NCBI GenBank assembly: GCA_021777335.1
Contig: JAJYDT010000019.1
Coordinates: 1-37,854, forward strand
Reading direction: 5' to 3'
Source: Pseudomonadota bacterium
Lineage (GTDB): Bacteria > Pseudomonadota > Gammaproteobacteria > Acidiferrobacterales > Acidiferrobacteraceae
Length of the DNA: 37,854 bases
The notes beneath the pieces were generated by a model, which ran no database searches, was not told the DNA's origin, and worked only from the letters and a program-made list of their open reading frames with translations. Position 1 is the stretch's first letter; each line of letters begins with the position of its first letter. The position numbers were made by a program, and so were the translations under genes. Below are positions 690-35,423 of this stretch, in pieces.

Positions 690-860
690 ATGTCCTGGCT
701 GCTTTCTGGTCTGCGCGCCAATAAGGGCGTGTTTCTCCCTGCCACCCCCCGGGGCCGGACCTTGTTCCCGTGCCGGTGGCGCACCGTCTCTTTGCGTCTA
801 GCCCATGTCCGCGGATACGTTTCACGGTTTTTGCAGGGAAGTTACGCTCATGTCGCATAG
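690..860 (+). CDS. Possible 56-residue leader/small protein coupled to cusC
   Basis: An ATG preceded by a strong Shine-Dalgarno (GGAGG at 679-683, six bases before the ATG) opens a 56-codon frame whose TAG lies 11 bp inside the start of cusC. The product is basic, rich in Arg and Leu, contains one Cys, and has no recognisable domain or clear signal peptide. The good ribosome site and the overlap with cusC point to translational coupling or a leader-peptide role, but this is inference. It could equally be a chance frame in GC-rich DNA. Confidence 0.35.
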   Translation: MSWLLSGLRANKGVFLPATPRGRTLFPCRWRTVSLRLAHVRGYVSRFLQGSYAHVA

Positions 861-3512: not shown

Positions 3513-6500
3513 AGCCGTCATGCGCTGGTGTCTGAAAAACCGCATACTGGTCATGATCGCGGCGGTGACGCTGATCGTCGCTGGCATCTGGGCGATCACC
3601 CACATTCCGCTGGAGGCGCTCCCCGACATTTCGCCGACCGAGGTCATCGTCAAGACGTCCTATCCGGGTCAGGCACCCGAGATCGTGCAGGATCAGGTGA
3701 CCTATCCCCTTGAAACCACGCTCCAGGAGGTCCCCGATGCCCAGGCCGTCCGTGGCTACTCGATGTTCGGGGATTCCTACGTCTATATCCTGTTCCGGCG
3801 GGGCACGAACATCTACCAGGCGCGCAACCTGGTCCTTCAGTACCTGAACCAGGCGGAGTCCAAGTTGCCCCGTGGCGTCACCCCGGCCCTGGGACCGAAC
3901 AGTTCGGGGGTCGACTGGATTCTCGAATACGCCCTCACCGATCCCACGGGCACCTTGAACCTGGCCCAGCTCACCACCCTGCAGAACTGGTTTCTCAAAT
4001 ATGAGCTACAGGGCATCCCGGGCATCGCGGAGGTGGCGACCATCGGGGGCATGGTGCAGGAATATCAGGTGGTGGTGGATCCCCAAAAGCTCTTGGCCTA
4101 CCGGTTGACCCTGCCGGACGTGGAGGCGGCGATCCGCGCCGCCAACGGCGAGACCAGCGGCTCGGTCGTGGATCAGGGGGAGGCGAGTTATATCGTTCGC
4201 ACCTCAGGTTACATCCGTTCACTGAAAGATCTGGAGGAGGCGCCACTCGCGGTGCGCGCCGGGGTTCCGGTCACGCTCAGGGACGTGGCACGTGTACAAC
4301 TCGGCCCCGAGCTGCCCCATGGTGTCGCCGAGCTCAATGGCCAGGGCCTAGTGGTTGGCGGCATCGTCATGATGAACCAGGGGGAAAATGGCTATGCGCT
4401 CATTCATCGCATCGAACATAAGCTGAAAGAGATTCGATCGTCCCTGCCCGCAGGCGTCCGGATCGTGACCACCTACAGTCAGGCCCCGCTCGTGCGGCGT
4501 AGTATTCGCACGCTGACCGGCAAACTACTGGAAGAGTCCTTGGTAGTGACGCTCGTCTGCCTGCTCTTTCTTCTGCGCGTCCGTTCGGCCCTAGTGGCAA
4601 TTGTCGCCCTGCCGCTCGGGATTCTGGCCGCCTTTCTCATCATGTGGCTCCAAGGCGTCCCGGCGAACATCATGTCGCTCGGCGGCATCGCCATTGCCAT
4701 CGGTGTCATGGTGGACGCGGCCGTGGTCATGATCGAGAACATGCACAAACACCTCGAGCGTGCACCCGGTGCCGATCCTTGGGTGACCGCAGGCATGGCC
4801 GCGGAGGAGGTGGGCCCGGCTCTGTTCTTCTCGCTGCTGATCATCGCGGTTTCCTTTCTGCCGGTGTTCGCCCTGGGCGGCGAGGAAGGCCGGCTCTTTG
4901 CGCCGCTCGCCTTCACCAAGACCTATTCCGTAGCAGCCGCTGCGGTCCTGTCCATCACCCTGGTACCGATCCTCATGGCCTGGTTCATCCGCGGCCGGGT
5001 TCCATCCGAGCACAAAAATCCCCTGAACCGGGTCCTGGCATTTCTCTATCGGCCGCTGATCGAAGCGGTTCTGTGCGCGCCATGGCGGGTCCTGGGTGTC
5101 GCTGTGCTGGTGACGGCGACGCTTTACTACCCCTGGTCGCGCCTCGGTTCCCAGCTCATGCCGCCGCTCAACGAGGGTACGCTACTGTATATGCCGGTCA
5201 CGCAAGACCCCGCGGTTTCGATCGGCGAGGCCGCGATCCTGCTGCAGCAGACCGACCGTATCCTGAAGCGGTTTCCACAGGTCCAGACCGTCTTCGGCGA
5301 GGCCGGTAGGGCGCAGACCGCAACCGATCAGTCGCCGTTGTCCATGTTCGATACGGTGGTGGACCTGAAGAACCCGGATCAGTGGCCCGCGGGGATGACG
5401 ATACACAGTCTGGAGACCCAGATGAACCGGGCCTTGCAAATCCCCGGTCTCTCGAACATCTGGACCCAGCCGATCAAAGATCGGGTAGAGATGCTGACCA
5501 CGGGCTTGCAGACGCCGCTCGGCATCAAAGTCGGCGGCACGAATCTCGATACCCTAAACCGGTTAGGACAGGAGGTCCAGACGGTGCTCCGGAAGGTGGC
5601 CGGCACCCAGAGTGCCTACGCGGCCCGGATCACCGGAGGGCGCTATATCGTCATCCATACCGATCGGGCCCAGGCGGCCCGTTATGGACTGTCGGTGGCG
5701 GACGTGAACCGGTTGGTGGCGACCGCGATCGGCGGGCAGGTTCTCACCACGGCGGTGCAAGGGTTGGAACGTTTCCCGGTGAATCTGCGCTACCCGCGGG
5801 CCCTGCGCCAGTCGCTCGCGACCCTGATGGCCAGCCGGATCGCGACACCGAACGGGGCTCAGATCCCCCTGGCGCAAGTGGCCGACGTCCGCATTGAGGG
5901 CGGCCCTTCGATGCTGACCAGCGACAACAGCCGTCTCGATAGCTGGGTCTATATCGATCTGATGCCCGGGACCAGCATCGGCAGTTATGTCGCCCATGCC
6001 AAAGCCGCGATCGCCAAGGTGATCCGGCTGCCCGCCGGCTACACGCTTTCCTGGGTCGGTCAGTACCAGGTCATGAAGCAAGCCGCCCGGCGGCTCGAAC
6101 TGATGCTTCCCGGTGTCATCTTGCTCATCGCCTTGCTGCTCTATTTCAATTTTCGGAACTGGGCGGAGGTGGCCATCATCCTGGCGACCCTGCCGCTGTC
6201 CTTGGTGGGCGGTTTCTGGCTTGTCTACTGGCTGGGCTACAAACTGTCGGTGGGTGTGGCCGTGGGTTTTATCGCCTTAGCAGGGGTGACCGCAGAATTC
6301 GGGGTCGTGATGCTGCTGTACCTCGATCAAGCCCTGAAGCGCCGGCAGGCGCAGGGCACCCTGCAGTCTCGGGCCGACCTGCAACAAGCCATCATCGAGG
6401 GCACCATGTTGCGGTTGCGGCCGCTCGCCATGACCTTCACGCTGGTGGTGGGTGGTCTGTTGCCCGTTCTGTTCAGCCATGGGGCCGGCGCCGATATGAT

Positions 6501-6612
6501 GAAACGTATTGCTGCCCCCATGGTCGGCGGCATGTTCAGTGCCGCACTGCTGGCGTTGGTGGTGGTTCCTGCCGTCTACACCCTGTGGCAGCGGCGGAGG
6601 CTGGGTCTGTGA
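3505..6612 (+). CDS. cusA: Copper/silver RND efflux pump CusA (HME family)
   Basis: This is the proton-driven inner-membrane transporter of the trio, 1035 residues, the usual size. It shows the HME-RND plan: TM1 at about 13-33, a large periplasmic loop, a TM cluster around 340-500 with the signature GVMVDAAVVMIEN carrying the Asp and Glu used in proton relay, a second periplasmic loop, and C-terminal TMs 865-1025. The three Met residues used by E. coli CusA for Cu(I)/Ag(I) binding have clear counterparts here: M563 (LLYMP), M614 (PLSMFD) and M663 (VEMLTTG), with almost identical spacing. This argues for monovalent Cu/Ag rather than Co/Zn/Cd export. The gene starts inside the end of cusB and is the last gene of the operon; a terminator follows. 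No cusF, cusRS or copA is visible in the window. Confidence 0.95.
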   Translation: MIKAVMRWCLKNRILVMIAAVTLIVAGIWAITHIPLEALPDISPTEVIVKTSYPGQAPEIVQDQVTYPLETTLQEVPDAQAVRGYSMFGDSYVYILFRRGTNIYQARNLVLQYLNQAESKLPRGVTPALGPNSSGVDWILEYALTDPTGTLNLAQLTTLQNWFLKYELQGIPGIAEVATIGGMVQEYQVVVDPQKLLAYRLTLPDVEAAIRAANGETSGSVVDQGEASYIVRTSGYIRSLKDLEEAPLAVRAGVPVTLRDVARVQLGPELPHGVAELNGQGLVVGGIVMMNQGENGYALIHRIEHKLKEIRSSLPAGVRIVTTYSQAPLVRRSIRTLTGKLLEESLVVTLVCLLFLLRVRSALVAIVALPLGILAAFLIMWLQGVPANIMSLGGIAIAIGVMVDAAVVMIENMHKHLERAPGADPWVTAGMAAEEVGPALFFSLLIIAVSFLPVFALGGEEGRLFAPLAFTKTYSVAAAAVLSITLVPILMAWFIRGRVPSEHKNPLNRVLAFLYRPLIEAVLCAPWRVLGVAVLVTATLYYPWSRLGSQLMPPLNEGTLLYMPVTQDPAVSIGEAAILLQQTDRILKRFPQVQTVFGEAGRAQTATDQSPLSMFDTVVDLKNPDQWPAGMTIHSLETQMNRALQIPGLSNIWTQPIKDRVEMLTTGLQTPLGIKVGGTNLDTLNRLGQEVQTVLRKVAGTQSAYAARITGGRYIVIHTDRAQAARYGLSVADVNRLVATAIGGQVLTTAVQGLERFPVNLRYPRALRQSLATLMASRIATPNGAQIPLAQVADVRIEGGPSMLTSDNSRLDSWVYIDLMPGTSIGSYVAHAKAAIAKVIRLPAGYTLSWVGQYQVMKQAARRLELMLPGVILLIALLLYFNFRNWAEVAIILATLPLSLVGGFWLVYWLGYKLSVGVAVGFIALAGVTAEFGVVMLLYLDQALKRRQAQGTLQSRADLQQAIIEGTMLRLRPLAMTFTLVVGGLLPVLFSHGAGADMMKRIAAPMVGGMFSAALLALVVVPAVYTLWQRRRLGL

Positions 6613-6730: not shown

Positions 6731-8209
6731 CTATTGCTTGCCGGAGGTTTTTGATTTGGCCGGTGTGGAAACGTCAGGCGACGGCAATGCCTCGTCAAGG
6801 GCCGATGCAGGGGTGGTTCCCGTCGTTGCCAACACGATGATGCCACAAGCGAGCTGAACCAGACTTCCCAGCACCATTGAATGGCGCAATCCGACCAGGC
6901 GGTGTTGCGCAGAGGAAAACACGGCGCCCAGGACGGCCACGCCAATCGTCGCCCCGGTCATTCGGGCCACATTAATAAGCGCAGCCGCAGTGCCCGAGCG
7001 CGCAGCGGGAACCGCATTAAGCGCGACGGCAAGGAAGGGTCCGGTGGCAAGTCCCATGCCGAGACCGGTCAGTGCCAGCGCAATTTCCGCCATGATGATT
7101 GATTCCCAATCGGCGGTCACGCCGAGGATCAGGAGCCCCAACGCGATCACGAGCAGGCCACTGGTGATCATAAACCGTGTCCCAAGTGTGCGTGAGAGTG
7201 CGCCGGAAAAGGGTGAAACGAACACGTAAACGAGCGCCATCGGCATGAGGGCTATGCCTGTCCGCAGCGGATCAAACCCATCGACGCTTTGCCACGTCAG
7301 CGGCAACAGAAACAAGACGCCATACATGCCGAATGTCATGCCGATCGTTGCCGTCATTGCACCAGTAAACTCGCGGACACGAAACATATCCAGCGGGACC
7401 AGTGCCATCGCACCCCGTTTTGATTCGACCAGCATGAAGAGCGGAAGCGCGAGTATGGCCACCCCTAGGGCTGCCAGAGCAGTCAGGATTGCGCCGCGCG
7501 CCTCGATGCTGGCGAAGACCAGACCGCCGAGTACGGCTGCGCCCAGGATCTGGCCAGGCATATCGAAATGACGGTCTTTCGGATTGGAGGACTCCGGAAT
7601 GGCGGGTACCGCCAGCACAAAGGCAGCGAATCCCAGGGGAACGACGACCAGAAAGACACTGCGCCATCCGAACTGCGGAATTAACAAACCGCCGAGCGTC
7701 GGCCCGATCGCCAGTGCCACCCCATTACAGGCGGCCCATATGCCAAGGACGCGGCCGCGCGCGGCGCGGTCAGGCCATACCACCCGAATGATGGCCAATG
7801 ATGCGGGGAGCAGCAAGGCGGCTCCGAGCCCCGCAAGTGCTCGTCCACTGACCAAAAGCCAGACGGTGGGCGCAAACGCGCACAAGAGCGATGCTGCGGT
7901 AAAAATGGCAGCACCGACCATGAAGATGCGTCGTCGGCCGTAGAGATCAGCGAGCAGCCCGCCAGTCAGGAGGAAGACCGCGTAGACCAGGTTGTAGCTG
8001 TCTACGACCCACTGGAGGGTGGCGACGTTCGCCGAAAAATAGACGCCGATTGAACGCACCGCCAGGTTGACGACAGATGTGTCCACCTGGGCAATGAGCA
8101 CAGCCAGACAGAGCGTGGCCAGGGTCAGGGTGCGTCGATCAGCAACACCGCGGGTGTGTTTTCCAGCGCCTGCCGCTCCGGGGCAAGGACCGGCATCCTC
8201 CTTTCGCAT
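6731..8209 (-). CDS. MFS exporter, DHA2 (EmrB/QacA-like) family
   Basis: A proton-coupled drug/solute exporter of the 14-TM DHA2 type, 492 residues. TM1 carries the family signature with the acidic residue (QVDTSVVNLA), and the loop between TM2 and TM3 has GGLLADLYGRRR (motif A). Motif C-like (GPTLGGLL) sits in TM5. The C-terminus is hydrophilic, rich in Ser, Pro and Lys. No EmrA-type partner is adjacent, so substrate is unknown. The start is uncertain: the first 23 residues look unlike DHA2 proteins, and a strong AAAGGAGG lies just inside the frame at codons 3-5, serving another short frame (see findings). The gene is divergent from galE and convergent with cusA. Confidence 0.85.
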   Translation of the reverse strand: MRKEDAGPCPGAAGAGKHTRGVADRRTLTLATLCLAVLIAQVDTSVVNLAVRSIGVYFSANVATLQWVVDSYNLVYAVFLLTGGLLADLYGRRRIFMVGAAIFTAASLLCAFAPTVWLLVSGRALAGLGAALLLPASLAIIRVVWPDRAARGRVLGIWAACNGVALAIGPTLGGLLIPQFGWRSVFLVVVPLGFAAFVLAVPAIPESSNPKDRHFDMPGQILGAAVLGGLVFASIEARGAILTALAALGVAILALPLFMLVESKRGAMALVPLDMFRVREFTGAMTATIGMTFGMYGVLFLLPLTWQSVDGFDPLRTGIALMPMALVYVFVSPFSGALSRTLGTRFMITSGLLVIALGLLILGVTADWESIIMAEIALALTGLGMGLATGPFLAVALNAVPAARSGTAAALINVARMTGATIGVAVLGAVFSSAQHRLVGLRHSMVLGSLVQLACGIIVLATTGTTPASALDEALPSPDVSTPAKSKTSGKQ

Positions 8210-8486
8210 CGTGATATTTTCTGTGTTTCTGTCTGCAGGATGCGTATTATTGTTTGATCAGTGTGGTCGATATTTCGACGCGGATCGAAGCATTCAGGCC
8301 GGGCTTCGTGCATAATACCGGGACCTTATGGGCAACAAAAGCATTTATTTCCTTCCCGGGCATGTTTTGTCCATTGCCTATCTGATCGCCGATCCGACAA
8401 GGATCGTGATGCTTATGGCTCTGGCGCGGTGCTTCGCGGGTCACAAGCTTTCGGGGTCACCGGATCGGCGTTGAATCGGAGGGCGT
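8210..8486. promoter_or_regulatory. Divergent intergenic region between the MFS gene and galE
   Basis: This 277-bp spacer must hold the promoters of both divergent genes. It is more AT-rich near 8215-8275. An interrupted palindrome, GTCGA-TATT-TCGAC at 8266-8279, could be a repressor site for the exporter, but that is a guess. I see no pair of good -35/-10 boxes. The galE ribosome site GGAGGG (about 8477-8482) is clear. Confidence 0.4.
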
Positions 8487-9539
8487 ATGACGAGGCGGAG
8501 CAGAGCGGACCGCAAACGCGTGCTCGTTACCGGCGGGGCTGGATACATCGGATCGCATACGGTATGGCAGCTCGTCGACGCCGGATACGAGGTCACGGTG
8601 CTCGACAACCTGTACTCCGGCCACCGGTGGGCCGTGCACCCGCAGGCCGAGTTCATTGTCGGCGATGCCGGAGACACGGATAAGGTAAGGGCGCTCCTGC
8701 GCGAACGCGGGATCATTTCCGTCGTGCATTTTGCCGGCCACATTGTTGTGCCGGAATCGGTGCGCGATCCTCTCAAGTACTACCACAACAATACCGCCGT
8801 GTCGCGCAATCTCATGGAGGCCTCGGTAGCTGAGGGTGTCACTGAATTCGTGTTCTCCTCGAGCGCCGCGGTGTATGGTATCCCCGCGAAAGTACCGGCA
8901 GACGAGGAAACCCCTACGGCGCCGATCAGTCCTTATGGTGCCTCAAAGCTCATGACCGAATGGATGCTGAGGGACCTGGCGGTCGCGACGGTCGGTTCCC
9001 AGCGGCCTTTTCGGTACATCGCCCTGCGTTACTTCAATGTTGCGGGCGCACGTCTTGACGGGCGACTGGGGCAGGCAACGCCCGATGCGACGCATCTGAT
9101 CAAGACCGCGTGTCTTGTCGCATGCGGTCTGCGTTCCCACATCGATATCTTCGGCACTGATTATGAGACCCCGGACGGGACCTGCGTTCGGGACTATATC
9201 CACGTCGAGGATCTCGCCGCCGCGCACCTCCTTGCCTTGCGATATCTCGGGGACGGTAAGCCTGCCCAGGTACTGAACTGTGGCTATGGGAGGGGATCGA
9301 GTGTGCGCGAGGTGATCGAAATGGTCCGGCGCGTGAGCGGACAAGCCGTCCCGGTCCAGGAGGCGGGGCGGCGCGCGGGTGATCCACCACTTCTGACCGC
9401 TGCCGCCGAGCGTGTGCGGAAGGTGCTGGGATGGGTCCCGCAGCACCAGAGTCTCGAGGTGATCTGCCGGTCGGCCTACGAATGGGAGCGATCGTTCTCG
9501 AAGGATGGGGTTGTGCCGGAGCGCGAAGGTCGCCGTTAA
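8487..9539 (+). CDS. galE: UDP-glucose 4-epimerase
   Basis: This NAD-dependent cytosolic epimerase interconverts UDP-glucose and UDP-galactose (some members also the N-acetyl forms), supplying sugars for surface polysaccharide. The 350-residue product is a full-length extended SDR: the NAD-binding GGAGYIG is at about residues 16-22, the catalytic serine region is SSSAAVYG, and the catalytic pair is Y150 and K154 in PYGASK. Also visible are LRYFNVAGA and the substrate-binding RDYIHVEDLAAAHLLAL stretch, both typical of GalE. A GGAGGG ribosome site precedes the ATG. It stands alone, divergent from an MFS gene. A role in feeding the glycosyl donor of the pilin O-ligase at 30624 is possible but speculative. 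Confidence 0.92.
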   Translation: MTRRSRADRKRVLVTGGAGYIGSHTVWQLVDAGYEVTVLDNLYSGHRWAVHPQAEFIVGDAGDTDKVRALLRERGIISVVHFAGHIVVPESVRDPLKYYHNNTAVSRNLMEASVAEGVTEFVFSSSAAVYGIPAKVPADEETPTAPISPYGASKLMTEWMLRDLAVATVGSQRPFRYIALRYFNVAGARLDGRLGQATPDATHLIKTACLVACGLRSHIDIFGTDYETPDGTCVRDYIHVEDLAAAHLLALRYLGDGKPAQVLNCGYGRGSSVREVIEMVRRVSGQAVPVQEAGRRAGDPPLLTAAAERVRKVLGWVPQHQSLEVICRSAYEWERSFSKDGVVPEREGRR

Positions 9540-9708
9540 GCCGAATCCCGCTGGGTGGCCGATAGCCCGGCGTGACTTGAAATTGACTGCTCGTCAGTGG
9601 CCCGCACGGTTGCCCTGCGCTATTTATCCATGTATAACAAATGTCTTAATTGAAGACGCAAGAAAAGAGGGCCGTGTCGGAGAAACGAGTGCAGCAGACC
9701 GGGACGGC

Positions 9709-10494
9709 GGTTTAGGGATCGAAAGGTGTGTCGGGTGGTAGCGGTACGCGCGTGGTCAATCGGTCTTTCGAGGGGTGCTGACCTGGTGTAGACGACGGGG
9801 AGCGGGCCTTGGATGTTGCTCCGTATGTAAACGGAAACAACCGCCCATGCGATCGTGGATGGATGGCGCCCCTACGGCGGCGATGTTGGACGAGCACCCT
9901 TGTGATCGCGACCACATGGGTGAAGCAGCGGTGTGCGTCCGCACGGCGCCCCGCTTCGATAACCCAGCGGTGCCATGAGCAGACCCGGTTCGTCGACAAT
10001 AAAGAAGACCAGTCATCAGGCGTGCAGCGTTGTTCTCACCTGTGGCCACTCCTCCTTGATCCAATGGTACGTCTCACCTGCGTCGCGTTTCAGCACCGGG
10101 TGTTCTGGTTTCCGGGGGCCCACCCCAGTCCATGCAGGAGCCTCTCGATATGATCGACGTGATAACGTACCCCGAACGCCGCCTCGATCAACTGTGCCAC
10201 CCGTGGGCAGGTCCACGGATCGGTGGGAAAACCGGCGGCGCAGACACCCGGAAGCAGGAGATATTCGAGCCGGCATTTGGCCCTGGCATCAGGGACCGGC
10301 GGGCGTCCGGACGACGGCTTGGCGGTGATTCCCTGTTCGCCTTGCGCTCGATCACTCGCTTTCCAGCGTCGTACACTGCGCCGGTTCACACCAATCTGTC
10401 GCGTCACCTCGACCGGCGGCACATCTTCTTTCAGCAGCGCGATCGTGTGTCTGCGCCGACGTTCCAGTTCCTTTGGGTTGCCCGGCGGTCTCAT
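9709..10494 (-). pseudogene. Decayed IS630-family transposase remnant
   Basis: Reading the minus strand from 10494 gives an IS630-type N-terminal helix-turn-helix: a RRRRHTIALLKE start, RSVRRWKA, AKPSSGRPPVP, then a winged-helix segment ending in LLHGLGW. The frame then breaks: the expected continuation (RKPEHPVLKRDAGETYHW) lies in a second frame ending at 10016. The start of the DDE domain (VFFIVDEPGLLMAPLG, first Asp) and a GRTPLLHP stretch follow in another frame near 9915-10010. Further shifts follow, with an SNIQGPLPVVYT-like segment near 9800. No second Asp or Glu of the DDE triad is found, and similarity fades by about 9709. This is a dead, 3'-truncated copy, probably an old insertion. 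Confidence 0.8.
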
Positions 10495-10536
10495 CTCATA
10501 CCCTCTGCCGCCGGAACAGGATGTTTGTTAAGCAGG

Positions 10537-10562
10537 GAGCAATAGTTGCGTAGCTATTGCTC
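10537..10562. repeat. 9-bp inverted repeat (GAGCAATAG/CTATTGCTC)
   Basis: Perfect nine-base arms at 10537-10545 and 10554-10562 with an eight-base loop. It lies just outside the 5' end of the transposase remnant. It could be part of the old element end or a hairpin upstream of the methyltransferase gene. Confidence 0.6.
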
Positions 10563-10618
10563 AACAAGACATAGAGAGAATGCTCCTGTGTGGCGGTTAC
10601 AAGAAGGCGTTGTTGAGC
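10559..10618. repeat. Second, overlapping inverted repeat (GCTCAACAA/TTGTTGAGC)
   Basis: The right arm of the preceding hairpin runs into GCTCAACAA (10559-10567), which is the exact reverse complement of TTGTTGAGC at 10610-10618, directly before the ATG at 10620. The two repeats share GCTC and cannot both fold fully at once. They suggest alternative structures or nested element ends. Confidence 0.5.
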
Positions 10619-10619
10619 C

Positions 10620-11255
10620 ATGAAGACCGATGCCATGTCTAGCTGCAGACACAAGGCCTGTCAGTGTGCCCGAGCGCTGCTCGCACGGATGGTTCCGGAC
10701 GATCTTCGATTATTCGTCAAGGTGCTGTGCGCGCGTCCACAGACCGTCGGAGCACCCTGTCCGAGCTCCCGCCGCCTGGCCAATTATATGGCGGCCCAGG
10801 CAATCGCTAACGCGAAGGGAACGGTAGTCGAGCTTGGGGCCGGTACGGGTGTCGTGACACAGGCCCTGCTGGATCGCGGGCTTGCCGCTGAAAAATTGAT
10901 TGTCGTCGAACAGTCGCCGATCCTTGCAGGACACCTGCGCGCCCGGTTCCCGCAGGTGACGGTGCTGGAGGGTGACGCTGCGCGATTGCGGGATCTGCTC
11001 GGCACGCATGCGCAACGGGTATCGACCATCGTATCCAGCCTGCCGTTACGGTCGTTGCCTCGCGTCACGGTCGATCGTATCGGCCGCGAACTCGATCGTG
11101 TCCTGCCCAGAGGCGCGACCTTCATTCAGTTCACCTATAGTTTACGTTGCAACGAGATCCACTGGACGCCGAATGCAACGTGCGTGCGCTCCCGTACCAT
11201 ATGGCGCAACCTGCCCCCCGCACGGGTCAACACGTTTGCCTGGGGAGTCAACTGA
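10620..11255 (+). CDS. SAM-dependent methyltransferase, phospholipid N-methyltransferase-like
   Basis: A 211-residue class I methyltransferase. SAM motif I is VVELGAGTGVVTQALL (about residues 69-84), with an acidic residue ending the second strand (IVVEQSP), a GDA turn, and a strand reading STIVSSLPLRSLP that replaces the usual motif IV. The preceding GAPCPSSRRLA and the C-terminal FIQFTYSLR segment resemble bacterial PmtA-type phosphatidylethanolamine N-methyltransferases and their KsgA-like relatives. That assignment is from motif recall; the substrate is not proven. The N-terminal 25 residues contain three Cys and a basic character. No strong ribosome site is seen; the upstream inverted repeat runs right up to the ATG. 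Alternative start at 10635. Confidence 0.7.
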   Translation: MKTDAMSSCRHKACQCARALLARMVPDDLRLFVKVLCARPQTVGAPCPSSRRLANYMAAQAIANAKGTVVELGAGTGVVTQALLDRGLAAEKLIVVEQSPILAGHLRARFPQVTVLEGDAARLRDLLGTHAQRVSTIVSSLPLRSLPRVTVDRIGRELDRVLPRGATFIQFTYSLRCNEIHWTPNATCVRSRTIWRNLPPARVNTFAWGVN

Positions 11256-26420: not shown

Positions 26421-26437
26421 TTGGTCTGCTTTTTGCT
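26421..26437 (+). promoter_or_regulatory. Candidate sigma54 (-24/-12) promoter of the pilus operon
   Basis: TTGGTCTGCTTTTTGCT has GG (26423-26424) and GC (26435-26436) separated by exactly 10 bases, with a strong TTTTTGCT -12 half. The -24 half matches TTGG but not CAC. The expected start site is near 26448, about 33 bases before the mshE ATG. A sigma54 activator is encoded nearby. Confidence 0.55.
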
Positions 26438-26460
26438 AGATTTTCAACTAGATTCCCTAG
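26436..26460. repeat. Three CTAG motifs in 25 bp within the mshE leader
   Basis: CTAG occurs at 26436-26439, 26448-26451 and 26457-26460; the first two lie in a CTAGATT direct repeat with a 12-bp period. They start on the -12 element and run past the expected transcription start. Confidence 0.5.
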
Positions 26461-26480
26461 TAGACCACTGCGAGAGTCCC

Positions 26481-28199
26481 ATGCCGCCCGCTAATGTACA
26501 GATCGTGAAACCGAAGAAGATTCGGATCGGCGATCTCCTGATCGAACACAAGATCATCTCCCGCGAACAGCTGGAGAGCGCGCTTGCGGACCAGCGCCAG
26601 AGCGGCCGCAAGCTTGGGCGTGTGCTGATCGAAAACGGCTTTCTCACCGAAGAGCAGCTGCTCACTTTCCTGTCGCGCCAGCTCAAGGTGCCCTACATCG
26701 ATCTTCGGCGCTATCAGTTCCAGCCCGAAGTGGTGCGCCAGATCCCGGAGACTCATGCCCGCCGGTACCGGGTGATTCTCCTCGAGGATGCCCAGGATGC
26801 ACCACTCATGGGGATGGCCGACCCCACGGATCTCTTCGCGTATGACGAGATGACACGGATACTCAAGCGGCCGCCGCGGATCGCCGTCGTCGGCGAGGCC
26901 GATCTTCTGAAGACAATCGACCTTGTCTATCGTCATACCGAGCAGATCAGCGGTCTTGCGGCTGAGCTCGAGCAGGAACTGTCGGCCTACGACGTCGACC
27001 TGACCGAACTTGCATCCACCGAGGGGCTGACCGACGCGCCTGTGGTGAAGCTTTTGCAGACGGTGTTCGAGGATGCGGTCCAGGTGAACGCCTCCGACGT
27101 CCATATCGAACCCGATGAGCGGGCCCTCAGGATCCGGTTTCGCTTGGACGGTGAACTGCGCGTTCAGACCACTGCGGATCGCCGGATCGCCGCGGCACTG
27201 GTATCGCGCCTCAAGCTCATGGCCGGTCTTGACATCTCGGAGCGGCGTCTGCCACAGGATGGCCGCTGCAATGTCCGGGTACACGACCAGCATGTCGACG
27301 TGCGTCTTTCGACAATGCCGGTTCAGCACGGCGAGTCGGTGGTGATGCGGCTCCTGAACCAGGCCTCCGGCCTGCTCGATCTGGAAAGGCTCGGGATGCC
27401 CGAGACCCCACTCGCGCGCTTTCGCGAGGTGCTCCGGGCGCCATATGGCATGGTGCTCGTCACAGGTCCGACTGGCTCAGGCAAGACCACGACACTTTAT
27501 GGCGCGCTCAAGACGCTGAACAGCGAGGCAGTCAAGATCGTCACGGTCGAGGATCCGGTTGAGTACCGGCTTCCCGGCATCAACCAGGTGCAGATCAATC
27601 CGAAGATCGAACTCACTTTTGCCCGCGCCCTGCGTTCGATCCTGCGTCAGGACCCGGACATCATCCTGGTCGGCGAGATGCGTGATCGTGAGACCGTCGA
27701 GATCGGGCTGCGTGCCGCCATGACCGGGCATCTGGTGTTGTCCACTTTGCACACCAACGACGCGATCTCCACGGCGCTGCGGCTCATGGATATGGGTGCG
27801 CCGTCCTACATGCTGGCCGCGTCGTTGCGGGCGATCGTGTCGCAGCGGCTCGTGCGGCGTATCTGCGAGTCCTGCTCCGAGCCGGATCAGCCCGACCCGG
27901 GGATGGTGGCGCTTGCCAAGGCGGAGCTCGGCGATGCGCCGCTCAATTTCCGGCGCGGGCGCGGCTGCGCTTTTTGCCATCATACCGGTTACCAGGGACG
28001 TATCGGCGTGTTCGAGTTCCTCGAGACGAGCAGCAGGCTTATCGAGGCGCTGCACACGGGCGATCCACAGCGTTTCGCGGAGACCGCGCGCCAGCAGCCG
28101 GGGTATCAGAGTTTGCGGCGCGCCGCGATCGCGCTGGCGGCGGAAGGTCTCACGACCATGGAACAGGCCGCGAGAGTTTCATTCACCGTCGAGGAATGA
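26481..28199 (+). CDS. mshE: MSHA-type pilus assembly ATPase with c-di-GMP-binding N-domain
   Basis: The extension motor of the pilus, a cytosolic GspE/PilB-family hexameric ATPase of 572 residues. The N-terminal MshEN region holds two tandem copies of the family's 24-residue motif (about 15-38, RIGDLLIEHKIIS..., and 44-67, KLGRVLIENGFLT...), the element that binds c-di-GMP in Vibrio MshE. Deviations: K24 where Gly is usual in copy 1, and K44 for the first Arg in copy 2. The ATPase core has Walker A GPTGSGKTT, Asp box EDPVEYRLPGINQVQ, Walker B ILVGEMRDRET and the His box STLHTNDA, then a zinc tetracysteine (CESC ... CAFC). I chose ATG 26481; the open frame starts at 26421, overlapping the promoter match. 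Confidence 0.93.
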   Translation: MPPANVQIVKPKKIRIGDLLIEHKIISREQLESALADQRQSGRKLGRVLIENGFLTEEQLLTFLSRQLKVPYIDLRRYQFQPEVVRQIPETHARRYRVILLEDAQDAPLMGMADPTDLFAYDEMTRILKRPPRIAVVGEADLLKTIDLVYRHTEQISGLAAELEQELSAYDVDLTELASTEGLTDAPVVKLLQTVFEDAVQVNASDVHIEPDERALRIRFRLDGELRVQTTADRRIAAALVSRLKLMAGLDISERRLPQDGRCNVRVHDQHVDVRLSTMPVQHGESVVMRLLNQASGLLDLERLGMPETPLARFREVLRAPYGMVLVTGPTGSGKTTTLYGALKTLNSEAVKIVTVEDPVEYRLPGINQVQINPKIELTFARALRSILRQDPDIILVGEMRDRETVEIGLRAAMTGHLVLSTLHTNDAISTALRLMDMGAPSYMLAASLRAIVSQRLVRRICESCSEPDQPDPGMVALAKAELGDAPLNFRRGRGCAFCHHTGYQGRIGVFEFLETSSRLIEALHTGDPQRFAETARQQPGYQSLRRAAIALAAEGLTTMEQAARVSFTVEE

Positions 28200-28205
28200 C
28201 CATCT

Positions 28206-29435
28206 ATGCCTGCGTTCCAGTATAAGGGTCGCAACGGCCGCGGTGAGGCTGTGTCCGGACGGATCGAGGCGGCAAGCCCCGATGCCGTTGCGGACCAGCT
28301 CCTGAACAGTGGCGTTACGCCGATTGATATCACCGCCGCGGGCGCAGGTGAGGACGTCGTCGAGGCCATGCGCCGGTATCTGGGTGGCCAGCAGGTAACG
28401 ATTGACGAACTGTCGCTGTTCTGCCGGCAGATGTATACGCTGTCGAAATCCGGTGTGCCGATCATGCAGGCGCTGCGCGGACTGCGCGCGAGCGCCCAGA
28501 ATCCGCGGCTTGGCGATGTGATCCGCCAGCTCGGAGACAGCCTGGACGCGGGCACGGATCTCACGACGGCGCTCAAGCGTCATCCCAAGGTGTTTCCGCC
28601 GCTGTTCGTCAGTCTCGTGCAGGTCGGTGAGACCACGGGACGTCTCGAGCAGGCGTTCCTGCAGCTATCGAGCTATCTCGATATCGAGAAGACAACCCGG
28701 CTGCGGATCAAGTCCGCGATGCGCTACCCGACATTTGTCCTTGTCGCGATCGTTGTGGCGGTGGCGGTCATCAATATCTTCGTGATCCCGGCGTTCAGCC
28801 GCATGTATGCAAGCTTTCACGCGCAACTGCCGCTTGCGACCAGGATCCTGATCGCGACCTCGCGCTTCACCATCACCTACGGCTGGATGATCCTTGCGGT
28901 GCTCATCGCGCTCGTGGTCGGTGTGCGGATCTATGTCGGGACTGAGGCCGGGCGCTACCGTTGGCACAAACTCAAGCTCCATCTGCCGGTGGTCGGCAGC
29001 ATCATCTACCAGGCGATGCTCGGGAGGTTCGCGCGCTCGCTTGCACTGACGGTGGTCTCCGGGGTGCCGCTGATCCAGGGGATGACCGTGGTGAGCCGCG
29101 CGGTCGACAACGACTTCGTGGCATCGCGCATCCTGCAGATGCGCGATGGCATTGAGCGTGGCGAAAGCATTACGCGCACGGCGGCCGCGACCGGGATGTT
29201 CTCTCCGCTCGTGCTGCAGATGATCGGTGTCGGCGAAGAGGCAGGTGCCGTGGATGCCCTGATGAACGATGTCGGCGAATACTACGAACGCACGGTTGAC
29301 TACGAACTCGAAAATCTGACGGCGACGATCGAGCCGATCCTGATCGTCGCGATGGGGGGGCTCGTTTTGGTGCTGGCGCTTGGCGTGTTTCTGCCCATGT
29401 GGGACCTTGCCCGTGCTGCCGGCGCTGGTCGCTGA
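28206..29435 (+). CDS. mshG: Pilus inner-membrane platform protein, MshG/GspF family
   Basis: A 409-residue platform protein. Two homologous T2SSF cytosolic helical domains (about 70-190 and 270-395) are each followed by membrane segments; TMs are seen at about 175-198, 222-245 and 380-403. Typical sequences are FCRQMYTLSKSGVPIMQAL, LVQVGETTGRLEQ and the matching second-domain MIGVGEEAGAVDAL. A GAGGAA ribosome site lies at the end of mshE, six bases upstream of which the ATG follows after a short gap. Its position directly after mshE matches other msh/gsp loci. Confidence 0.93.
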   Translation: MPAFQYKGRNGRGEAVSGRIEAASPDAVADQLLNSGVTPIDITAAGAGEDVVEAMRRYLGGQQVTIDELSLFCRQMYTLSKSGVPIMQALRGLRASAQNPRLGDVIRQLGDSLDAGTDLTTALKRHPKVFPPLFVSLVQVGETTGRLEQAFLQLSSYLDIEKTTRLRIKSAMRYPTFVLVAIVVAVAVINIFVIPAFSRMYASFHAQLPLATRILIATSRFTITYGWMILAVLIALVVGVRIYVGTEAGRYRWHKLKLHLPVVGSIIYQAMLGRFARSLALTVVSGVPLIQGMTVVSRAVDNDFVASRILQMRDGIERGESITRTAAATGMFSPLVLQMIGVGEEAGAVDALMNDVGEYYERTVDYELENLTATIEPILIVAMGGLVLVLALGVFLPMWDLARAAGAGR

Positions 29436-30126: not shown

Positions 30127-30561
30127 ATGAACAGACAGTCTGGTTTCACCCTGATCGAACTGGTGCTGGTGATTGTCATCATCGGTATCCTGGCGGCTAC
30201 CGCGTTGCCCCGGTTCGTGAATCTGAGCAACGACGCACGGGTTGCCGCGGTAGAAGGTCTCTCGGGCAGTCTGCGCAGTGCCGGTGATCTGGCGCACGCG
30301 ACCCAGCTTGCCGAGAACCTGAGTTCGAGCACCTCGGTGACCATGGACGGCGTTACCGTCACCATGGCAAACGGCTACCCGACGGCGGATGCGAACGGGA
30401 TCCAGAACGCGATCACCGACTTCACCAACTTCACGCCGACCAGTACCGGCTCCACCGGGACCGACAGTTTCGTCCCGAACGGTGCCAGCAACTCCGCATC
30501 CTGCTACGCGCAGTATGCGAATGCGGGCGGGGTTGTTACCTTCCAGTCGACCGGCTGCTGA
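30127..30561 (+). CDS. mshA: Major type IV pilin, MshA-like
   Basis: The structural subunit of the pilus, 144 residues. A short leader MNRQSG is cut before F7 by a PilD-type peptidase (G|FTLIE), leaving E11 as the conserved E5 of mature pilin. The hydrophobic spine ([19 protein letters not shown]) and the following [11 protein letters not shown] helix match MshA proteins. The C-terminal globular part is rich in Thr, Ser, Asn and Gly and has a D-loop Cys pair (C126, C144). Many Ser/Thr in the 100-125 stretch could be O-glycosylated by the ligase encoded next; that is inference. GGAG lies nine bases before the ATG. It has its own 5' gap (94 bp) and a 3' stem-loop. Confidence 0.92.
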
Positions 30562-30623: not shown

Positions 30624-32588
30624 GTGCACACCCGGTTCCTAGACCACCGGCCGCCGCTGACCGCGCTGGCCGTCATAGGCGCCCTCGTGGCGTCGCTCTT
30701 TTTTCACGGACGCTGGCTCGGATTCCTGAGCCTTACCCTTGCCTTCGAGATCCTCGCGCTCCTGGCGGTAGCCTGGCGTGCCGATGGCCGCTTTTCGATC
30801 CCGGTCAGCGCGCTGACGCTGTTCATCTCGCTCTTCTGGGCGTGGCTTGCGCTGACACTCCTGTGGACCCCGGTACCGGCCACGAGCGGACTCAATTTCT
30901 GGTGGCTTGGCTCGCTGCCGCTCATCTACTGGGTCTCCCTCCTCACCTCGGATGCGGAGGCTTATTGGCGATTCGTGTTTTCCGTCACGGGCGTCATCGC
31001 CGTCCTGCTCGCCGTGGTCGCGCTCTACCAGTATTTTCATCTGCATGCGTTGCCCCGGTCGGTGTTCCTCTACACGAACTCGCAGGATGCGTTTCTCAAC
31101 CTGGTGACGCTCCCGCTGTGCGCTTATCTCCTCAAGGCGGTTGCCGCGCGCCACCGCATTCGTGCCGCCGCGCTCAGCGCGGCCGTGGGCCTGCTGATCT
31201 TCGTGGTGGCGTTGACAGGTGAACGCGCACCGGCGATTACCCTCATCGTCGGGTTTCTGGTACTCGCCGTTGTCGTCCGCAGTCTCGTGCCCCGTGCAGC
31301 GCTCGGCTTGCCGTTCGCACTGGCGTTCGCGGCCTATGGGCTCGCCGGCATCACAGCCCACAGCGAGGCCGTAGGCCGGCTCGCCACTCTGGCGCACCCT
31401 GCTCAGGCGGCAGCGACCCGCGTCGTGATCTGGCGCGGGGCGGTAGCGTTGCTTGCGCATGCGCCCTGGCATGGGATCGGTCTTGGCCTGTTCTCGCTTG
31501 CCTATCCCCCTTACCGCCACGCTGGCGACACCAGCGCCGGGTTTTTCGTGCACGATGACTACCTCCAGATCGCGATCGAGGCGGGCTGGGTCGGGTTGCT
31601 CCTCTTCCTCGCGGTACTGGGTTCAGTGGCGGTGACATTTGTCCAGGGTCTGCCGGCGCGCGGAGAGGATGACGGGAAGCGTATCGAGATGGCCGGACTC
31701 TTCGGCGCACTGCTCACGGTCGCGGTCCACAGCCTTGTCGATTTCAATTTCTATATCCCTTCCATCCTGGTGCTCTCGGGGCTGATACTGGGCCGCCTGC
31801 ATGTGCTTAGTCTGCGCCCGGCAGCGCGGCGGATCGGGTTCTCGCTGCGTCCGGCGCTGAGCCGCGGCGGCTACCGCAGCATCCTTATGCTGCTGGCGCT
31901 GATCCCGCTCCTAGATTTTTCCGCCGTGGCGCTTGCGGACCACGAATATCGCGTCGGTCTTGCCGCGGCCGCACGCGGCGACTGGCTTGCCTCGGACCGC
32001 GCGCTCGCCCATGCCGAACGGCTGTTCCCCGATTCGGACACGGTGCGCATGACCCGCGCTGATCTCTATCGGCACCTGCTCCTCTATCTGCCGCGGAACG
32101 CGCAGCACGAACGTACGCATGTCTATCATCTGGCCAAGCACCTGCTGCGCAGAGCGGCCGCCCTGAACCCGCTGCGTCCCGAGACCCCATGGCTTCAGGG
32201 TGAACTCGATGCCGAACATCCCAGTCTCACCGGGGCGCATTGGCAGCGCCGGGCGCTTGCCTGCTACCACCGGGCGCTCGCGCTTGACCCGCGCTTTTAT
32301 CCGGCGCGGTTCGATATCGCGGAACTCCTCCTGCACCAGCAGCGTCCAGTGCCGGCGCTGGCGACACTGACCGCCGGGCTGCCGTACTGGTATCCCGCAC
32401 AACCGAAGATACTGCCCTATTACGGCCTGAGCGCAGCGCTTTTGCGTGCGCAAGGCCACCCCGTGGAGGCGGCCCGGGTGTCGCAAAGAGCCGAGGCGAT
32501 CGAGCGAGCGTTTCCCGACAATGCCATGAGCCGCAAGGTCGCGCTCCTCGCCGAGACGCCGAATGCGCGTGGCTGGGACGTGCCATGA
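30624..32588 (+). CDS. O-ligase family membrane protein (WaaL/PglL-type) with TPR-like tail
   Basis: A 654-residue inner-membrane protein starting at GTG with a GGGAGGGG ribosome site. About 11-12 TMs fill residues 10-440. The Wzy_C/O-antigen-ligase signature lies in a large periplasmic loop: ERAP near 200, HDDYLQIAIEAGWVG from H310, and HSLVDFNFYIPS from H369. The last 200 residues are hydrophilic, with helical TPR-like repeats (LAHAERLFPDSDTVR, CYHRALALDPRFYPARFDIAELLL). This layout is shared by WaaL ligases and by PglL/TfpO protein O-oligosaccharyltransferases. Lying between the pilin and pseudopilin genes, it most likely glycosylates MshA or a minor pilin; that is inference from position. 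Its stop overlaps the next ATG (ATGA). Confidence 0.8.
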   Translation: MHTRFLDHRPPLTALAVIGALVASLFFHGRWLGFLSLTLAFEILALLAVAWRADGRFSIPVSALTLFISLFWAWLALTLLWTPVPATSGLNFWWLGSLPLIYWVSLLTSDAEAYWRFVFSVTGVIAVLLAVVALYQYFHLHALPRSVFLYTNSQDAFLNLVTLPLCAYLLKAVAARHRIRAAALSAAVGLLIFVVALTGERAPAITLIVGFLVLAVVVRSLVPRAALGLPFALAFAAYGLAGITAHSEAVGRLATLAHPAQAAATRVVIWRGAVALLAHAPWHGIGLGLFSLAYPPYRHAGDTSAGFFVHDDYLQIAIEAGWVGLLLFLAVLGSVAVTFVQGLPARGEDDGKRIEMAGLFGALLTVAVHSLVDFNFYIPSILVLSGLILGRLHVLSLRPAARRIGFSLRPALSRGGYRSILMLLALIPLLDFSAVALADHEYRVGLAAAARGDWLASDRALAHAERLFPDSDTVRMTRADLYRHLLLYLPRNAQHERTHVYHLAKHLLRRAAALNPLRPETPWLQGELDAEHPSLTGAHWQRRALACYHRALALDPRFYPARFDIAELLLHQQRPVPALATLTAGLPYWYPAQPKILPYYGLSAALLRAQGHPVEAARVSQRAEAIERAFPDNAMSRKVALLAETPNARGWDVP

Positions 32589-33085
32589 GTACGCCCGCGC
32601 GGTCAACGATCGCGTCACGGCCACGCCCGCAGGGCGGTTTCACGCTCGTCGAGCTCGTGATCGTGATCATGCTTGCGGGGATCCTGGCCGTCGCCGCGAT
32701 GGACCGGCTGCCCGGGGCGGGTCTGAGTCTCGGGGCGCAGGCTGACCAAGTGGCGTCTGACGTGCGCCTTGTGCAGTCGCTCGAGCTGACCCGGGGCGTC
32801 TCGTATTGCCTCAACGTCATGCCGAGCGGCTACCAGATCACGGATCAGGGGTGCACCACCCCCATTGTCAATCCGGCAACCGGTGCAACCACCACGGACT
32901 TTGGTCCGGGGATCACGGCAGGCACGAATTTCACCAATGGTTACGTGGCCTTCAGGGGGCCGGGTGTGCCCTATGCCTCCCAGACCACGGCGCTCGCGGC
33001 ACCCGGTGTCATCACGTTGAGCGCCGGCGGCGCGTCTGCCACGGTATCGATCGCGCCGCAGACCGGCTATGTGAGCGTGCAATGA
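32585..33085 (+). CDS. Minor pseudopilin, MshC/GspH-like
   Basis: A 166-residue prepilin. The leader ends at G18|F19 (QGGFTLVE), with E23 as the mature E5 residue, followed by the hydrophobic spine LVIVIMLAGILAVAAMDRL. The rest is beta-rich and Thr/Gly-rich with a Cys pair about 17 residues apart (SYCLNV, DQGCTT). It overlaps both neighbours by 4 bp. Position after the pilin and the GspH-like body suggest MshC or MshD; I cannot separate them with certainty. Confidence 0.8.
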   Translation: MSTPARSTIASRPRPQGGFTLVELVIVIMLAGILAVAAMDRLPGAGLSLGAQADQVASDVRLVQSLELTRGVSYCLNVMPSGYQITDQGCTTPIVNPATGATTTDFGPGITAGTNFTNGYVAFRGPGVPYASQTTALAAPGVITLSAGGASATVSIAPQTGYVSVQ

Positions 33086-33618
33086 GCCCCGGCGTTTCCG
33101 ACCACTCAGGTCTTGCCCGCGGGCACCGTGGCTTCACCCTGATCGAAATGGTGGTGGTGATCATCATCCTCGGCATCATCGCCGGGCTTGGTGCCCTGAT
33201 TCTGCGGGGAGGTTTCAACTCTTATTTCGCGGAACGGGACATCAGCGCCGCCGATGGCCAGGCGCAGACCGCACTCGCGCGCATGACGCGCGAACTGCGC
33301 ACGGTGCGCACCGCTTCGACCGCAGATCTGCCCGTCATGACCTCGACCAGCATGACATTTGTCGATTTTGCGGGAGACACGATCGCGTACACGTATGACG
33401 CAGTCCCGCAGACGATCACCCGGAGCGAGAATGGCGGGGCCGCACAGACGCTGGCCGATCACGTCAGCGCCGCGAGCTTTTCATACTGGCAGTCGGATGC
33501 GCAGACCGCGGCGACCGGTCCCGGAAATGTTTACTACATCACCATCCAGATGACCGTCACGGAGGGGATCTCGTCGCTCACGTACCGCGTCACCGTGCAT
33601 CCGAGGGACTTCTCATGA
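33082..33618 (+). CDS. Minor pseudopilin, MshO/PilW-like
   Basis: A 178-residue prepilin, leader cut at G17|F18 (HRGFTLIE) with E22, followed by MVVVIIILGIIAGLGALIL. The body begins with an amphipathic helix (AQTALARMTRELRTVRTA) typical of MshO/PilW/GspJ proteins and continues with strands such as SMTFVDFAGDTIAYTYD. No Cys. The ATG overlaps the preceding stop (ATGA), and its own stop overlaps the start of the propeller pilin. Confidence 0.83.
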   Translation: MSPGVSDHSGLARGHRGFTLIEMVVVIIILGIIAGLGALILRGGFNSYFAERDISAADGQAQTALARMTRELRTVRTASTADLPVMTSTSMTFVDFAGDTIAYTYDAVPQTITRSENGGAAQTLADHVSAASFSYWQSDAQTAATGPGNVYYITIQMTVTEGISSLTYRVTVHPRDFS

Positions 33619-35423
33619 GTGCCCAGCGGCAGCGCGGTTTCCTGCTCATCGCCGCAATCGTGCTGCTCGTGATCCTGAGCTTCTTCGCGCTCGTGGTCAC
33701 CGATCTCTATGTCGGCGATACCCGTCGCAGCATCGATCACTTGAGTTCGGCTCAGGCATTCTTCCTGGCCGAATCCGGTCTGGAACGGGCGACCCGGGCG
33801 CTCCTGTCGCCGACCGTACTGACGCCTTCGTCCCCGGACAACCGCCAGTCCTGTGCCACCGTCAACACCAACCTGACCGGGGTCGCCCAGGGGGCGGGGG
33901 TGTTTTCCGTGACGGGTGGCACGCCGTTCTACTCCGGGGATACCACGAACAGTGCGATGACCGTGAACGGACCCCTGTCCGCGACCGCGACGGTCATCCC
34001 ACTCGCCAATACCGCCTCGCTCGCCGATTACGCACCCTCGGGGCGCGTGATGATCGGTCAGGAAGAGATCGACTACAGCGCGATCTCGCCAAGCGCCTCG
34101 GTGTGCGGTACGGCGCCCTGCCTGATCGGCGTGATCCGCGGGGTGGATGGCACCACTGCCGTCGCCCATGTTTCCGGCACCCCGGTCGGGCAATACCAGT
34201 GTGTGCTGAGCGCGCAAGGCGGGGTACCGGCGCTCACCAATGCACGCGGCCTGCGTACGCTGGCCCAGGGGGTCGAGCTCCAGGAGGCGTGGGCGGTCGG
34301 CAGCGAGGGGATGTCCCAGCAATCAGGGGCTGCGGTCACAACCGCGCTGCGCTGGAACGGGAGCGCGTGGACCGACGCGAGCGCGGGGATGCCGAGTCGT
34401 AACCTGAACAGCATCGCGTGCCTCAATTACGCCGACTGCTGGGCCGTGGGGAGCGCGAATTTCATGAACCTGATCCTCGGCGGCGGTCCGGCACCGGTCG
34501 CGACCGTGGTGCACTGGAACGGTTCGTCCTGGACCAATTTCTCAGGCACCCTGCCGCCGCCCATCCGCGGCGACGACCTCGACGATGTGACCTGCACGAG
34601 CTACGACAACTGCTGGATGGTCGGGGGCTACACCGCGGGCAAGTGGGCGCTCGTCCATATGACCTGGGGCGCGCCCAACACGCCGGCGTGGACCGTAGAC
34701 ACGCCGAAGAACCAGGGGCTGCCGAACAAGTACAACAGTTTTGATATCGACGGGGTGGCGTGTGTCAACGCAAACCTCTGCTGGGCGGTCGGGAGCCTGC
34801 GAAAGGCTCAGACCCTGCTGCTCGAATGGAACGGCACCAAATGGAGCGTCAAGACCGGCTTGTTGCCCGGTGGGGGTCCGATCAGGCAAAACAATCTCGA
34901 CCTTGACGCCATTACCTGCTCCGCAACCGCCTGCTGGGCGGTGGGCGCGGACAAGGATAACCGCGGAAGCCGGCAGGTCGCAATCGCCTACTGGAGTGCG
35001 GCCACTGGCTGGCAGGATCTCAGTAACGAGGTGGCGGGCTCGCTCGATGTGGAGAGCGTGGCCTGCGCCAATGCCAACGAGTGCTGGGCGACCGGCAGCT
35101 TAAATCCGAACAGCGTGACCGAGCTGCTCTACTGGAATGGCACAACCTGGGCCGATGTCAGCAACACGATCCCGACGGCAATCTCCTCGACCGCTGAGGA
35201 TCTCGATAGCATCGCCTGCGGTGCCGCCGACGACTGCTGGATTGTTGGCAGCATCTGGGGCCCTTACCTGACCGGGACCAACGGGCTGGTGGCGCTTCAC
35301 TGGGACGGGTCCTCATGGACAAATCTCAGCGCCTCGCTGCCGAACGGCAACGATGTCGAGGGGATTGCCCTGACCGGTCCCGGGGCCCGTCCCCGGTCGG
35401 CCTGGCAGGAGGTGTTCCCCTGA
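33615..35423 (+). CDS. MshP/PilX-like minor pilin fused to a seven-repeat, Cys-paired putative beta-propeller
   Basis: A 602-residue chain of two parts. Residues 1-70 are MshP/PilX-like: short leader RQRG|FLLIAAIVLL (E5 is Ala, as in MshP), a TM spine and the helix AQAFFLAESGLERATRAL. Residues 70-220 are Ser/Thr/Gly-rich with four Cys. Residues 222-600 hold seven repeats of about 50-58 residues, each with WNGSSW-like sequence (WNGSAW, WNGSSW, WNGTKW, WNGTTW, WDGSSW; two divergent). Six begin with a close Cys pair before CW-hydrophobic-x-G: C269/C275, C327/C333, C383/C389, C435/C440, C484/C490, C535/C541. Repeat 1 starts at EAWAVGS and lacks its first strand; the C-terminal VEGIALTGPG can supply it, a classic propeller closure. 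MshP is normally under 200 residues. A tip-adhesin role is inferred, with MshQ or PilY1 as functional parallels. Confidence 0.8.
   Translation: MSAQRQRGFLLIAAIVLLVILSFFALVVTDLYVGDTRRSIDHLSSAQAFFLAESGLERATRALLSPTVLTPSSPDNRQSCATVNTNLTGVAQGAGVFSVTGGTPFYSGDTTNSAMTVNGPLSATATVIPLANTASLADYAPSGRVMIGQEEIDYSAISPSASVCGTAPCLIGVIRGVDGTTAVAHVSGTPVGQYQCVLSAQGGVPALTNARGLRTLAQGVELQEAWAVGSEGMSQQSGAAVTTALRWNGSAWTDASAGMPSRNLNSIACLNYADCWAVGSANFMNLILGGGPAPVATVVHWNGSSWTNFSGTLPPPIRGDDLDDVTCTSYDNCWMVGGYTAGKWALVHMTWGAPNTPAWTVDTPKNQGLPNKYNSFDIDGVACVNANLCWAVGSLRKAQTLLLEWNGTKWSVKTGLLPGGGPIRQNNLDLDAITCSATACWAVGADKDNRGSRQVAIAYWSAATGWQDLSNEVAGSLDVESVACANANECWATGSLNPNSVTELLYWNGTTWADVSNTIPTAISSTAEDLDSIACGAADDCWIVGSIWGPYLTGTNGLVALHWDGSSWTNLSASLPNGNDVEGIALTGPGARPRSAWQEVFP

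Follow-up and report, generated by a model that had tools for sequence, protein, structure and literature searches.

A modular K-type minor pilin with a predicted disulfide-braced seven-bladed propeller in an MSHA-like pilus gene cluster

Introduction

Can a minor pilin of an MSHA-like type IV pilus itself carry the domain with which the pilus holds a surface? MshP, which ends the minor-pilin genes of MSHA clusters with an MshEN-type ATPase, is a small protein. The putative adhesin of these pili, MshQ, is a separate protein (PMC7096442). The question is raised by a stretch of 37,854 nucleotides (hereafter the window; contig JAJYDT010000019.1 of assembly GCA_021777335.1) from a member of the Acidiferrobacteraceae, in which a preliminary description, made from the sequence alone, had read one frame as an MshP-like pilin N-terminus fused to a seven-bladed propeller, and had suggested that a tip adhesin made in this way would be a new organisation of the MSHA tip. 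Here we analyse this protein (the propeller pilin), its gene cluster and its homologues.

Results

The propeller pilin ends a minor-pilin operon

The window has the arrangement of an MSHA pilus locus, with an ATPase carrying the MshEN domain (PF05157, NF053729), an adjoining GspF gene and pilin genes downstream (Table 1). The propeller pilin is the fourth pilin-like gene of the cluster and, as expected of a K subunit in the H-I-J-K series, the last of its H-J-K minor-pilin operon, with PilM-like and PilN-like genes downstream. ATGA overlaps join the H, J and propeller-pilin genes, the ATG of the latter overlapping the TGA of the J gene, and the three are therefore probably translated together. 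The MshP/PilX position proposed earlier is thus the one found. A PilV-like I subunit, located between H and J in most relatives, is absent from the operon of the window, where H and J overlap directly at 33082-33085.

Table 1 Features of the pilus cluster in the window and of nested homologues (coordinates of the latter refer to their own loci).
Feature	Location	Strand	Basis or remark
MshE/PilB-type extension ATPase with MshEN c-di-GMP-binding domain	26421..28199	+	PF05157, PF00437, NF053729
GspF/MshG platform protein	28206..29435	+	PF00482
Major pilin, MshA-like	30127..30561	+	
O-antigen-ligase-like (Wzy_C) gene with TPR	30624-32588		Between major pilin and minor pilins
H-type (GspH/MshC-like) minor pilin	32585..33085	+	
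J-type (PilW/MshO-like) minor pilin, upstream of propeller pilin	33082..33618	+	ATGA overlap at both ends
CDS, 602-aa propeller-bearing PilX/K-type minor pilin	33615..35423	+	Sequence; conserved in relatives
Prepilin leader MSAQRQRG, residues 1-8	33615..33638	+	Sequence; PilD cleavage predicted after G8
Hydrophobic alpha-1 and PilX_N-like region, residues 9-57	33639..33785	+	Sub-cut-off PF14341 match; modelled helix 4-63
Extra pilin-head segment, about residues 125-196 (GRVMIGQEEIDY...GVIRGVDGTTAVAH..GTPVGQYQC)	33987..34202	+	Alignments
Last conserved strand-like pilin-head segment, LRTLAQGVELQ, residues 213-223	34251..34283	+	Conservation
Seven-bladed beta-propeller module (predicted), residues 224-589	34284..35381	+	Repeat map, predicted structure, fold comparison
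Six Cys pairs C269/275, C327/333, C383/389, C435/440, C484/490, C535/541	34419..35237	+	Sequence; paired presence/absence
Closing strand A of split blade 1, residues 579-589 (strand 583-587)	35349..35381	+	Model, blade HMM
Conserved C-terminal tail RSAWQEVFP, residues 594-602	35394..35420	+	Common to relatives with other modules
Nested propeller pilin, L056 (G048)	ORF 2030-4759	-	7-unit inner set
Nested propeller pilin, L110 (G055)	ORF 7934-10663	-	7-unit inner set
Nested propeller pilin, L112 (G019)	ORF 264-2723	-	5-unit inner set

All 602 residues are encoded without interruption in one frame that opens with a prepilin N-terminus, so that pilin and propeller are fused in one chain, as had been claimed. 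The N-terminus has the form of a class III signal peptide, MSAQRQRG followed by FLLIAAIVLLVILSFFALVV, in which a short basic leader ending in Gly precedes a hydrophobic helix. After the predicted cut (QRG/FLLIAAIVLLV) mature position 5 is Ala; Glu is likewise missing from this position in the homologues listed, and Glu5 is also absent from PilX homologues and GspK (PMC7541494). The prepilin and K-type features of the supposed MshP-like N-terminus were therefore recovered, whereas its membership of the PilX_N family was not, since residues 7-57 matched PF14341 with 19.6 bits, below the cut-off of 25.5 bits; a relative encoded at the same position (L054) passes with 26.3 bits.

Alignments located an extra segment in the head of the window protein, bearing the motifs IxxEEIDY and RGVDGT, that is not present in short-headed relatives. 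This segment, in generalised form with the motifs IDxExIxY and RGxxGTxAxxH, has similar counterparts in second PilX-like paralogues without modules (L052:5531-6559 and L060:6295-7197). The counterpart of the last head segment, LRTLAQGVELQ, reads [RK]RTLxxxxQLQE or RTVxAxL in the head types seen. In a structure model, pLDDT was mostly under 50 over residues 28-222 of the head, which the model does not resolve, and under 50 over residues 589-602 at the tail, whose placement is accordingly tentative.

The repeats are predicted to close into a seven-bladed ring

The motif W-[AMI]-[VT]-G recurs seven times, beginning at W226, W276, W334, W390, W441, W491 and W542, and in six of the seven repeats a Cys pair with a spacing of 5-6 residues precedes the Trp unit, which confirms the count and phase reported before. 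A blade HMM built from the repeats likewise found seven units in this protein. The first of them aligns only from model position 15 onwards and thus lacks strand A, and the missing strand is matched by DVEGIALTG at the C-terminus. This arrangement, with exactly seven units and the first strand missing, was identified by the blade HMM in 17 divergent homologues, the window's own protein included, which is more than chance would give; in three of them an extra tail match of negative score was ignored.

Modelling of residues 207-602 with AlphaFold2 from a shallow alignment of 5 sequences (the window protein and four homologues) yielded a closed seven-bladed propeller (pLDDT 72.6, pTM 0.79), with DVEGIALTG completing the ring in the manner foreseen by the preliminary description. 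The best match of this model to a solved structure was the seven-bladed designer protein 7bid (VIA Z 29.8, rmsd 2.4 Å over 276 residues, model residues 17-383). Foldseek matches included Kelch domains, YCF48 and the fucose-binding lectins PLL and AAL, and the structural neighbours also comprised the enzymes streptogramin B lyase, CylK, thiocyanate dehydrogenase and GH74; among the fold matches listed there was no PilY1 structure. A PDB sequence search with the propeller alone retrieved no relative, and a Pfam/NCBIfam search of the window protein returned no propeller family above cut-off. Residues 224-589 are thus predicted to form a closed propeller of seven four-stranded blades, with blade 1 split between both ends.

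In each intact blade one Cys closes strand A and the other opens strand B. Among the scorable units of all homologues 131 had both Cys, 19 had neither and 2 had only one, both of the latter in one genus; the two residues occur or are missing as a pair (Fisher p = 3e-22, a value that is indicative only because repeats and species are not independent). The split blade 1 is free of Cys, with Ala before its Trp and a closing strand devoid of Cys at that phase. Because all-or-none presence is the pattern that a disulfide predicts, these counts support one putative disulfide between strands A and B in each intact blade, in line with the pairing suggested earlier.

Whole propellers may be nested within a split blade

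In G048 and G055 the order of units, as read from the sequence, opens with strand B of blade 1, continues through seven complete units to strands C-D of that blade, and then has six complete units and a final strand A. On the simplest reading of this order, a complete seven-bladed propeller would have been placed into the split blade of another one, between its strands B and C. The layout of G019 is the same, with five inner units. The inner sets (7, 7 and 5) enter as whole groups at one point, and the outer ring therefore remains one of six full blades and one split blade. A homologue in G052 has only four units, possibly owing to assembly collapse of near-identical repeats. A universal count of seven is ruled out by G052 and by the inner set of five in G019. 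The G052 locus (L111, 2345-6108, +) encodes two modular PilX-like pilins in tandem, one of them the four-unit propeller form. The other has 632 residues and another kind of propeller-like repeat, and each of the two has a W-x-E tail at its end.

Common heads and tails carry different modules

At the K position, the same type of head was found with other modules. These were jelly-roll-like, as judged by eye, in Sulfuricaulis (L052:4071-5639) and G054, of another type in Sulfurifustis and G018, repetitive and beta-rich in G368, G150 and G110, and with a sub-threshold CBM_4_9 match in G024. Whatever the module, W-x-E or W-x-Q was present within the last ten residues of 28 of the 33 proteins with this head type.

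Propeller carriers did not form one clade in the tree of heads (AU p = 0.00075, from 202 columns with hand-chosen cut points, hence supportive and not final), and supported branches force at least three changes. A phylogeny of the repeat domain, which the preliminary description had proposed as a check, conflicted with that of the heads at well-supported branches. The propeller tree groups G364 with G136/G260/G021/G026 (100/99) and leaves G157, G413 and G407 outside, and the head tree groups the latter three with G136/G260/G021/G026 and leaves G364 outside (100/99). A single history cannot contain both splits, and recombination between heads and propellers is therefore probable, judging from the two trees, to whose conflict an out-of-register repeat alignment or long branches could contribute. 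The conflict, together with the common head and W-x-E tail that carry other modules, points to the propeller as an exchangeable cassette.

Distribution is patchy and PilY1 or DUF6701 may coexist

A full-length profile matched 15 of the 57 genomes of the order, several through the pilin head only, and 16 of 369 genomes in a sample of the class, spread over many families; three of the latter (G110, G150 and G368) matched by the head only and carry a different module. The single match among the 398 genomes of a phylum-wide sample was the window itself. Spread is therefore patchy and dependent on sampling (class 16/369 vs phylum 1/398). In distant genomes the gene is mostly the last of the H-I-J-K set, and the operon order H-(I)-J-K is conserved. 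In sister genus g3 of the same family (L043, L044 and L045) it lies away from pilin genes, and its neighbours in L043 are a LysR-type regulator and a CobD-type gene. Genomes of genus g2 gave no match to the propeller pilin, and in those examined the region that follows the ATPase lacks pilins. A plasmid collection contributed two actinobacterial records, unannotated there, that resemble the propeller pilin weakly (identity 23-28%, E values of 3e-4 and 7e-3); they speak neither for nor against the domain acquisition by transfer that the preliminary description had considered possible.

Neither PilY1 (PF05567) nor DUF6701 (PF20419), which we take to be MshQ, matched the window protein or its genome, and the family, with 18 genomes, yielded no match to either. 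Since runs on the own genome gave no positive control, both searches were extended to the order, in which PF05567 matched 27 of 57 genomes and PF20419 matched 10. PilY1 is present in G034 and G048, and a DUF6701 protein is encoded on the same contig as the propeller pilin in G052 and G055. This coexistence in G052 and G055 means that replacement of DUF6701 is not general and, with the PilY1 of G034 and G048, rules out as a rule that the propeller pilin replaces MshQ/PilY1.

Discussion

We consider it likely that the propeller pilin serves an MSHA-like type IV pilus as a modular minor pilin of the K type (PilX/MshP position), with a disulfide-braced propeller that is displayed at the tip and binds a surface ligand. 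Judging from the motif, PilD would cut after G8, and the alpha-1 helix lacking Glu5 would enter the H-J(-I) minor-pilin complex as its topmost subunit, as the GspK/PilX precedent and the conserved operon order suggest. Outside the membrane, residues 224-589 would fold into the closed propeller of the predicted structure, each intact blade with the A-B disulfide to which the comparative evidence points. At the tip the propeller may then recognise a ligand on a surface, probably a glycan or a component of a matrix, and thereby let a pilus presumably controlled through its c-di-GMP-binding ATPase attach. Tip location and adhesion are argued by analogy, from the tip precedent of PilX and GspK, the presence of the PilX and PilY1 roles in one chain and the lack of PilY1 or DUF6701 matches in the 18 genomes of the family. 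The module would accordingly be displayed on pili and functional there, and since comparison finds head and W-x-E tail constant and the module exchanged, the pilin may be viewed as a display platform for interchangeable binding heads. We counted against this reading the orphan gene of the sister genus, the sub-cut-off PilX_N match, the low model confidence for the head, the four-unit homologue of G052 and the absent I subunit.

That the propeller mainly primes or gates pilus assembly, as PilY1 partly does, rather than binding a ligand, seems unlikely, even though PilY1 and minor pilins prime pilus formation in Myxococcus (PMC7541494) and, with PF05567 and DUF6701 unmatched throughout the family, the tip role may fall to something else; a primer would be expected to be conserved, yet the module is swapped for unrelated folds and varies in size from four to fourteen blades, and in G052 and G055 a DUF6701 protein is encoded on the contig of the propeller pilin. 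The several enzymes among the structural neighbours, and the sulfur oxidisers of the order, would suit a pilus-borne enzyme or a domain scavenging metals or other ligands. We regard this as quite improbable, as fold similarity alone does not show function and other modules at the same position resemble jelly-roll or carbohydrate-binding domains. More improbable still is an open array in which the number seven is incidental. The variable unit number (four in G052, extra sets in G019, G048 and G055) and the 5-sequence alignment under the model speak for such an array, but 17 homologues have exactly seven units and the same split blade, the extra sets were inserted whole at one point with the outer ring intact, and the modelled closure matches seven-bladed structures.

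The tip-displayed binding pilin that we favor conforms to the definition of modular pilins, i.e. a pilin module and a folded domain that is not pilus-specific in one chain, here conserved across genera; these pilins are an established and widespread class with 264 architectures (PMC8179133). PilB and PilC of Streptococcus sanguinis, like modular pilins at large, show at the filament a functional domain grafted on a pilin, but with vWA or lectin modules (PMC8179133). The census of that class searched pilins with IPR012902 (PMC8179133), and because the head of the window protein matches PilX_N only below cut-off, its family may lie outside the census. Closer in fold is PilX2 of the T4P-2 of Nanosynbacter lyticus TM7x (Saccharibacteria), published in 2025 and, according to the portions of that report available to us, a PilX-named minor pilin with a seven-bladed RCC1-type propeller whose deletion roughly halved host-bound cells, from about 10.6% to 4.6%; the jelly-roll of its sister PilX1 parallels the module exchange seen here (PMC12206443). 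As described in those portions, PilX2 differs in its RCC1 repeats, in a C-terminal propeller, in having no predicted PilD signal peptide and in its phylum, and they make no mention of Cys-paired Trp-rich blades, a W-x-E tail or a nested propeller (PMC12206443). The earlier claim of a new organisation of the MSHA tip was therefore overstated.

In the tip complex of Pseudomonas aeruginosa and Myxococcus xanthus, modelling places a PilX that lacks Glu5 at the tip of the pilus, where it makes contact with PilY1; the conserved C-terminal part of PilY1 forms a modified beta-propeller (PMC7541494). There the two roles are divided between separate proteins, whereas the propeller pilin would combine them in a single chain, and its propeller does not match PF05567. 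GspK of type II secretion is likewise the last of an H-I-J-K set, without Glu5, with an extra domain inside the pilin fold and proposed as the tip pseudopilin, but its insert is alpha-helical. A literature search that left most subscription papers outside its reach found no description of this propeller family in MSHA-type pili, of a head-tail cassette or of nested propellers. Single-chain propeller pilins are thus already known, while the disulfide-braced version, the domain exchange and the ring-within-ring forms appear to be undescribed. The preliminary description did not yet include the exchange of modules, the conservation of the C-terminal tail, the nesting of propellers or the occurrence across Gammaproteobacteria.

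The propeller pilin would represent a one-chain equivalent of the PilX-PilY1 tip complex for MSHA-like pili, and a clear candidate for the binding element of such pili where no PilY1 or DUF6701 protein was found. A broader proposal, to which we assign even chances, is that the MSHA-like K-type minor pilins of Gammaproteobacteria constitute a plug-in platform in which a constant head and W-x-E tail hold exchangeable modules (disulfide-braced propellers, jelly-rolls and other folds) that are swapped between lineages by recombination, and in which valency is raised by a second propeller inserted into a split blade. If so, a head and tail that stay fixed while the module between them is exchanged would account for changes of ligand in one type of pilus. 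How repeat proteins evolve under mechanical load could be tested on the propeller-in-propeller forms and on the all-or-none Cys pairs.

The O-antigen-ligase-like gene between the major and minor pilins of the window is a candidate pilin glycosylation ligase. ORFs resembling it were observed at the same place in L056, L058 and L050, by appearance two each in L056 and L058. The window also contains tripartite efflux genes at 805-6612 (OEP, CusB/HlyD-type and AcrB/AcrD/AcrF-family), unrelated to the pilus cluster.
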